In this document: positions 62,240 through 64,000 of the stretch, one piece after another
How positions within the stretch are numbered: position 1 is the stretch's first letter
How the letters are laid out: every line of letters starts with the position of its first letter
Source of the DNA: an uncultured Coriobacteriaceae bacterium
GTDB lineage: Bacteria; Actinomycetota; Coriobacteriia; Coriobacteriales; Atopobiaceae
Assembly (NCBI GenBank): GCA_902793195.1
Contig: CADBCS010000005.1
Location: 94,491-158,490, forward strand
Direction of reading: 5' to 3'
DNA: 64,000 nt
The notes under the pieces: generated by a model
The model's input: only the letters and a program-made list of their open reading frames with translations
Database searches by the model: none
What the model was told of the DNA's origin: nothing
Translations under genes and position numbers: made by a program

Positions 62240-62267
62240 CCAATACGCGCAAGCGCTGCAGCGTCAA
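62240..62267 (-). promoter_or_regulatory. Promoter candidate for hom-lysC
   Basis: On the minus strand TTGACG (62267-62262) and TATTGG (62245-62240) are 16 nt apart, giving a leader of about 50 nt. The -10 box is weak. No lysine or threonine riboswitch was recognised between here and hom. Confidence 0.4.
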
Positions 62268-62355
62268 ACGAAGACCGAAACATTCGATTTGCCATTGATG
62301 TTTCCACGTCCGGGTAGGCGGGCAGCATCACCGCGGCTCGACTGAGCCGACATGA

Positions 62356-62647
62356 CCTGACAAAGTGAAAAAAGCAGGTCGTTTTTGGCGTTTTTCGTCA
62401 CATTGTCAGGTTGGGGTGGGGGTCGAACCTGACAAAGTGACGAAAATGGCCGTTTTTGGGAAAAGAATTTCACTTTGTCAGGCCTATCGTCCTTGTGGAC
62501 ATGCTGTATGGGAATACAGACCTGACAAAGTGATTTTTTGGGGCCAAAATCGATGGGTTTGTTCACTTTGTCAGGTTGGAGGTGACGCCCAACCTGACAA
62601 AGTGAAAACCGGTGCCGTATTTGAGGTTCAATAGCCACTTTGTCAGG
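62356..62647. repeat. Array of four 55-bp elements with 12-bp terminal inverted repeats
   Basis: Elements lie at 62356-62410, 62428-62482, 62521-62575 and 62593-62647. Each starts CCTGACAAAGTG and ends CACTTTGTCAGG (one mismatch in the first), with exactly 31 nt between. The interiors differ but three share a central TCG/CCG-TTTTT-GG-like core. Elements 1-2 and 3-4 are each 17 nt apart; pairs are 38 nt apart. The array fills much of the 62180-62814 gap between hom and the helicase. No recognised gene, transposase or cas gene accompanies it. Confidence 0.9.

Positions 62648-62814: not shown

Positions 62815-64000
<1,186 letters not shown>

Follow-up and report, generated by a model that had tools for sequence, protein, structure and literature searches.

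The array of four 55-bp units at 62356-62647 of the window, the 64,000-nucleotide stretch of an uncultured Coriobacteriaceae genome analysed here, is one copy of a dispersed family of ~290-bp intergenic DNA elements belonging to one Coriobacteriales genus. The family is apparently undescribed so far. Small dispersed repeats are usually recognised by their sequence, whereas here the letters change from one species to the next and the spacing and helical phase of composition stay frozen, and selection on DNA shape can therefore be separated from selection on letters. We give roughly even chances to the view that the element is under selection for its geometry as double-stranded DNA and bears a nucleoprotein complex that is sequence-specific and either bent or wrapped. 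The arrays offer a concrete case for asking what protein reads such a shape, whether the DNA is wrapped, and whether repeats of this kind are parasites, topological anchors or both. The parts of the window array and its neighbours are as follows.

62356-62647, no strand: whole array, 292 bp (296 bp including the conserved outer GA/TC), two palindromic modules and a central linker
62356-62482, + strand: module 1, 127-bp palindrome of unit 1, a 17-nt linker and unit 2 (match of model R1 at C5:156846-156972)
62521-62647, - strand: module 2, 127-bp palindrome of unit 3, a 17-nt linker and unit 4
62356-62410, no strand: unit 1, 55 bp, half-sites at 62356-62367 and 62399-62410 (the second with one mismatch)
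62428-62482, no strand: unit 2, 55 bp, half-sites at 62428-62439 and 62471-62482
62521-62575, no strand: unit 3, 55 bp, half-sites at 62521-62532 and 62564-62575
62593-62647, no strand: unit 4, 55 bp, half-sites at 62593-62604 and 62636-62647
62411-62427, no strand: linker 1, 17 nt, forming with its flanking half-sites the hairpin or dyad whose sides covary best
62483-62520, + strand: central linker, 38 nt, with a GTATTC-like...GAATAC palindrome in most copies; its asymmetry orients the element
62576-62592, no strand: linker 2, 17 nt, TTGG...CCAA
61049-62203, - strand: left neighbour outside the element, a homoserine dehydrogenase gene named hom in the sequence-only reading, present in all 16 genus genomes
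62815-64000, + strand: right neighbour outside the element, a DEAD-box RNA helicase gene that continues past the window end

The four 55-bp units, with spacers of 17, 38 and 17 nt, lie where the sequence-only reading had placed them. The two 17-nt spacers are TTGGGGTGGGGGTCGAA and TTGGAGGTGACGCCCAA. Ends common to all units, as that reading described, were found at seven of the eight positions (CCTGACAAAGTG / CACTTTGTCAGG), the exception being the second end of unit 1 (CACATTGTCAGG), with one mismatch. The 55-bp units it took for the element are real, but the true unit is larger, a 127-bp palindromic module used twice. Its proposal that the array acts between hom and the helicase did not hold: copies adjoin unrelated genes, relatives do not have hom next to the helicase, and an array lies upstream of the helicase in only two of 16 species. 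Regulation tied to either gene was rejected, as neither synteny nor arrays are conserved there. In the two species concerned, that of the window (G000) and G062, differently ended arrays (L043, L122) precede the same DEAD-box helicase gene; the other 14 species showed none at that position. Over window positions 62264-62638 the array is open in reading frame on both strands (PDKV...SLCQ), a chance effect of the palindrome; coding repeats were rejected because spacings of 94 or 166 bp in some other arrays break the frame.

The census of the family was based on pattern and model searches of drafts or MAGs, one per species. In the window's own genome (3.04 Mb, 64 contigs), the two ends around a 31-nt interior matched 8 exact and 33 near copies (up to three mismatches) on one strand, and the reversed control pattern matched none in the same search, which excludes a chance origin of the units. 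About nine arrays were found there besides that of the window; those of this genome lie on contigs C2, C5 (window), C11, C14, C16 (two), C20, C35 and C39, with partial ones on C15 and C24, and the C20 array is a shortened copy of three units. R1, a covariance model of the half-element, picked up diverged relatives in other members of the genus, and the broader model R2 was used to complete the census. Arrays are present in 8 of the 16 species of the genus, with up to about 20 per genome, the numbers per genome being estimates from R2 match counts (both strands counted: G000 40, G062 35, G064 54, G065 76, G066 34, G076 85, G067 4 and G068 2). G069 gave a single weak R2 match (E 0.03), and seven other species of the genus gave none. 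The suggestion of a miniature element family was thus borne out, with copies elsewhere in the same genome and in relatives.

Outside the genus, no genome reached a meaningful score, with 397 searched from the order and 396 from the phylum; the order search returned two short, chance-like matches. Further pattern-scan matches, in genomes of Bacteroides, Aeromonas and other named organisms, were left aside as single units that probably match by chance. A phage or plasmid origin was rejected, since there was no match in the IMG/VR patterns, INPHARED or PLSDB. Rfam held no family match at the gathering threshold. Literature searches, with most subscription papers outside their coverage, gave only chance matches in unrelated papers for the end sequence and nothing relevant on coriobacterial palindromic repeats and MITEs.

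Every full array holds eight half-sites, spaced ~41-30/31-41-52-41-30/31-41 in nearly all full arrays and in species with different ends, and consists of two palindromic modules of 124-127 bp around a 38-40-nt linker. The full G000 arrays carry eight 12-mers at 43-29-43-50-43-29-43, a few with single-base departures, which corresponds to 41-31-41-52-41-31-41 in homologous coordinates; across the family, almost every full array is spaced 41/42-30-41/42-52-41/42-30-41/42. Within a species, units can differ in size by 1 bp. Meanwhile, 12 positions of the half-sites are nearly fixed, with letters that vary from species to species: CCTGACAAAGTG in G000 and G067, CCGAACAAACGG in G065 and G076 with an additional CCGACCAAGTGA subfamily, CCGATTAAGTGA in G066, CCGACAAAGCTC-like ends in G062, CCGAATAAGTGA in G068, and CCGAACAACCTCCC-like ends in G064. 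These ends are species-specific, yet largely alike within one array. The idea that the size of the unit matters is upheld by this geometry, which is kept across species with changed end sequences, and a check for free drift in relatives showed that the spacing does not drift. Arrays of three or two units equal a full array minus whole modules or unit-sized pieces.

With the asymmetric 38-nt linker setting the orientation, nine arrays can be aligned over their whole length, at overall identities mostly of 0.59-0.72; the window array and the G067 copy reach 0.78. Similarity is lost abruptly beyond GA-CCTGAC...GTCAGG-TC, and across the nine aligned copies the edge of the window array is equally abrupt against unrelated flanks. 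The GC content of full arrays is 0.42-0.53, compared with 0.57-0.65 in the surrounding loci. A CRISPR array was rejected as a candidate: CRISPR arrays have direct repeats and unrelated spacers, whereas the repeats here are inverted and fixed in number, and the interiors are related between copies.

The interiors had been taken to be free, and their letters do vary, but they keep helically phased A/T and G/C content and are therefore not free. An average of 80 units showed alternating A/T-rich and G/C-rich stretches, and over the whole element A/T content has a single dominant period of 10.25 bp in every family. Summed over 19 arrays, the power was 81.3, compared with 24.7 (maximum 31.2 in 200) for shuffles of the interiors and linkers that left the ends in place, and 4.6 after full shuffling. 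The peak arises partly from the fixed unit spacing and ends; most of it comes from the order of the interiors, because the ends-kept shuffles score far lower. Mean power at 10.25 bp was 11.3 in G000, 14.2 in G066, 20.3 in G065/G076, and 12.7 in G064 and G062 (11-20 times the variance), and flank power was 0.8-1.3. Modules 1 and 2 keep a common phase on either side of the central linker (R 0.94, n = 31), and the dyads fall at G/C maxima. Units are spaced 71-72, 93 and 71-72 bp apart, or 7, 9 and 7 turns of 10.25 bp, and the phased stretch covers about 28 turns, ~288 bp. Such phasing is the expectation for DNA bent in one plane or wrapped. Composition phasing need not imply wrapping, and the genome-wide 10-11-bp periodicity has been argued not to serve bending (PMC7537859).

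Across the short linker, 93.4% of cells were paired in 33 half-elements, with 99 double-change cells, compared with 85.6% for pairing within the unit, and the within-unit hairpin is thus less supported as the folding unit. In oriented G000 copies, mismatches between paired half-sites were G.U and A.C in 10 and 6 cases at positions 1-12 and in 13 and 12 at positions 13-16, all small numbers. The two are similarly frequent, and nothing therefore points to selection on a single transcribed strand; this near equality fits double-stranded recognition better than RNA pairing. That covariation is best across the short linker would also fit hairpin-forming DNA or template-switch correction, and pairing alone does not discriminate between a double-stranded dyad, a cruciform and such correction.

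The gaps that hold arrays were tandem in 18 cases, divergent in 8, convergent in 8 and undetermined in 6 with a crude ORF caller. There was no gene-orientation bias, no array lay within a convincing gene, and the neighbours are unrelated (PPK2, an aminotransferase, MetG, IMP cyclohydrolase, a nitroreductase and others). Similarity between unlinked copies barely exceeds the element (88.7% for L213/L219, 80% for L204/L213), with boundaries mostly within a few bp, in many copies 2-9 bp from the outer half-sites, and up to about 21 bp away in L213/L219; the G066 copies have an extra 20-80 bp of flank in common. Since unlinked copies are alike over little more than the element, copies have spread. 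Between sister species they are mostly retained at orthologous loci. G065 and G076 have ten orthologous arrays in common, an eleventh pair has two units in one species and four in the other, and one array was lost or replaced, leaving a 14-nt remnant. No clean empty site was found.

Taking the family, its architecture, dispersal, covariation, helical phasing, intergenic placement and persistence at orthologous loci as established, we infer protein binding, wrapping and a purpose for the complex, which may lie in movement of the element itself, in the topology of the chromosome, or in both. The conserved product of the repeat would be double-stranded DNA geometry, with the eight species-specific half-sites (12-16 bp) arranged as two twofold-symmetric modules of 124-127 bp. 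Through the alternation of A/T-rich and G/C-rich stretches every 10.25 bp over about 28 turns, the DNA would be predisposed to bend one way along its full length. The half-sites would be bound by a putative DNA-binding protein with sequence specificity, probably a multimer, which would wrap or strongly bend each module by itself or together with gyrase or a nucleoid protein. The fixed spacings would be the geometry of this proposed complex, and the genome-wide change of half-sites its co-evolution with the protein. Copies would spread within genomes as compact elements and then be inherited in place. The best reading is a spreading intergenic repeat whose putative complex would resemble a gyrase site in size, symmetry and phasing. 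A bolder form, which we consider doubtful, is a nucleosome-like wrapped particle of ~288 bp, 28 turns and eight half-sites with a dedicated, fast co-evolving protein, used ~10-20 times per genome for local topology or architecture.

A selfish miniature element of REPIN/MITE type, whose modules fold as single-stranded or cruciform hairpins for a transposase supplied in trans and whose lengths serve transposition only, is unlikely but a serious contender. It would account for the dispersed copies with close boundaries, the species-specific subfamilies (two within one genome), the compensatory stem changes and the strong single-strand folding (z -10 to -14). REPINs likewise conserve spacer length and hairpin capacity, with inverted conserved ends and compensatory changes (PMC3116915), and the arrays have these inverted ends, fixed spacer lengths and compensatory changes. 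They resemble REPINs and REPs with their RAYT genes also in being intergenic and palindromic, in having species-specific families, and in occurring in a genus with RAYT-like genes (Y1_Tnp, in 15 of the 16 genomes). However, the RAYT genes here adjoin other near-perfect palindromes: no array units were found at the Y1_Tnp loci examined, several of which have their own long palindromes, and G062 has arrays yet no Y1_Tnp match. REPs are defined as palindromes preceded by a conserved tetranucleotide, mostly GTAG (PMC8266576), whereas the flanks of about 50 arrays had no consistent GTAG-type tag, GA/TC, AAAC/GTTT or CGA/GGTG being common there. Membership of the RAYT/REP system was rejected on these two defining features, the tag and the repeat flanking the RAYT gene. 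The arrays differ further in that their ends are not small palindromes themselves, and in forming a fixed four-unit composite of 288-292 bp, in about 10-20 copies rather than hundreds, with 10.25-bp phasing throughout. With prokaryotic MITEs and BOX, RUP or SPRITE repeats they have in common a short length, A/T-richness relative to the genome, terminal inverted repeats, intergenic dispersal with sharp ends, modular unit loss and copies at conserved loci. But no parent IS was found, and no target duplication was recognised, as no consistent direct repeat was seen by eye outside the ends of these old copies. No transposase lay beside the arrays with identified neighbours, in fragmented genomes where part of the arrays was read. 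The internal geometry is frozen across species with little common sequence, and the module number of BOX repeats is far more variable. The lack of a clean empty site also speaks against a selfish element, and hairpins do not explain phasing over 28 turns.

Quite improbable in our view, though likewise a serious contender, is that each module is a strong DNA gyrase site and that the element, like BIME-2 in E. coli, is a pair of such sites which fixes supercoiling at particular places. Gyrase in E. coli has a symmetric motif of ~130 bp, with two flanking arms of GC content periodic at 10.75 bp, and BIME-2 elements are preferred gyrase sites (PMC6379681). The arrays have comparable palindromic modules of 124-127 bp with helically periodic GC, and regularly spaced palindromes in alternating orientation as in BIME-2. 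Their period is 10.25 bp and extends over the whole element, however, and gyrase reads a degenerate motif, whereas the arrays have strict half-sites and a fixed unit number. Gyrase is also universal, while only about half of a single genus carries arrays. There is overlap between our preferred explanation, the selfish hairpin element and the paired gyrase sites: the proposed complex may act in transposition of the element itself, or may bring in gyrase. Readings as RNA or as a shufflon are disfavoured. A structured non-coding RNA, in which the transcribed array folds as a four-armed cloverleaf, is very unlikely, even though RNAalifold picked the cloverleaf independently (13 of 64 pairs changed on both sides) and it is also the + strand MFE structure. 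The near-equal G.U and A.C mismatches, the few G.U cells among paired half-sites, the lack of an Rfam match and neighbours on both strands with no common function argue against it, and loop and linker lengths are fixed, whereas RNA loops would drift. A shufflon-like array, with units flipping between inverted half-sites by site-specific inversion, is scarcely credible. Shufflons do have multiple segments bounded by short inverted sites, and unit 1 of the orthologues L107/L158 is inverted between G065 and G076 (identity 0.86 inverted vs 0.59 direct). But this was the one clear inversion in about 40 orthologous unit comparisons (sister species, one genome each), on which count the candidate was rejected; short and long linkers stay in place, and template switching in a hairpin would also be expected to give a single flip. 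The segments here are also non-coding, measure 29-31 bp and hardly ever differ in orientation between sister species.

Several individual loci had further peculiarities. Besides the unit 1 flip, unit 3 of one of L107:2243-2295 and L158 resembles unit 2 of the other, a possible unit exchange. The orthologous three-unit arrays L105:4233-4428 and L111:2139-2334 (G065, G076) are almost identical except in unit 1, while identity in their immediate flanks is only about 85%, which would fit stronger constraint on the array or a recent conversion of it. In G076, a 2.1-kb segment with at least two ORFs (L112:2020-4115) lies directly beside an array and is absent from G065. An array-bearing 2-kb stretch occurs twice on G076:C56 (L217/L218), inverted, about 40 kb apart and 100% identical, possibly an assembly artefact. 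Arrays of three species (L041, L114, L116) lie near the same partly rearranged galE-adjacent region, which suggests a tolerated or preferred site. Finally, at the RAYT loci L166, L167, L169, L174 and L176 (of G076, G070, G069, G073 and G074), near-perfect palindromes of ~40-70 nt, such as TGACCACAAACCCGCTGTGGGATCGTGGTCA-GTTT-inverted, flank the RAYT-like genes and are apparently the genus's own REP type.
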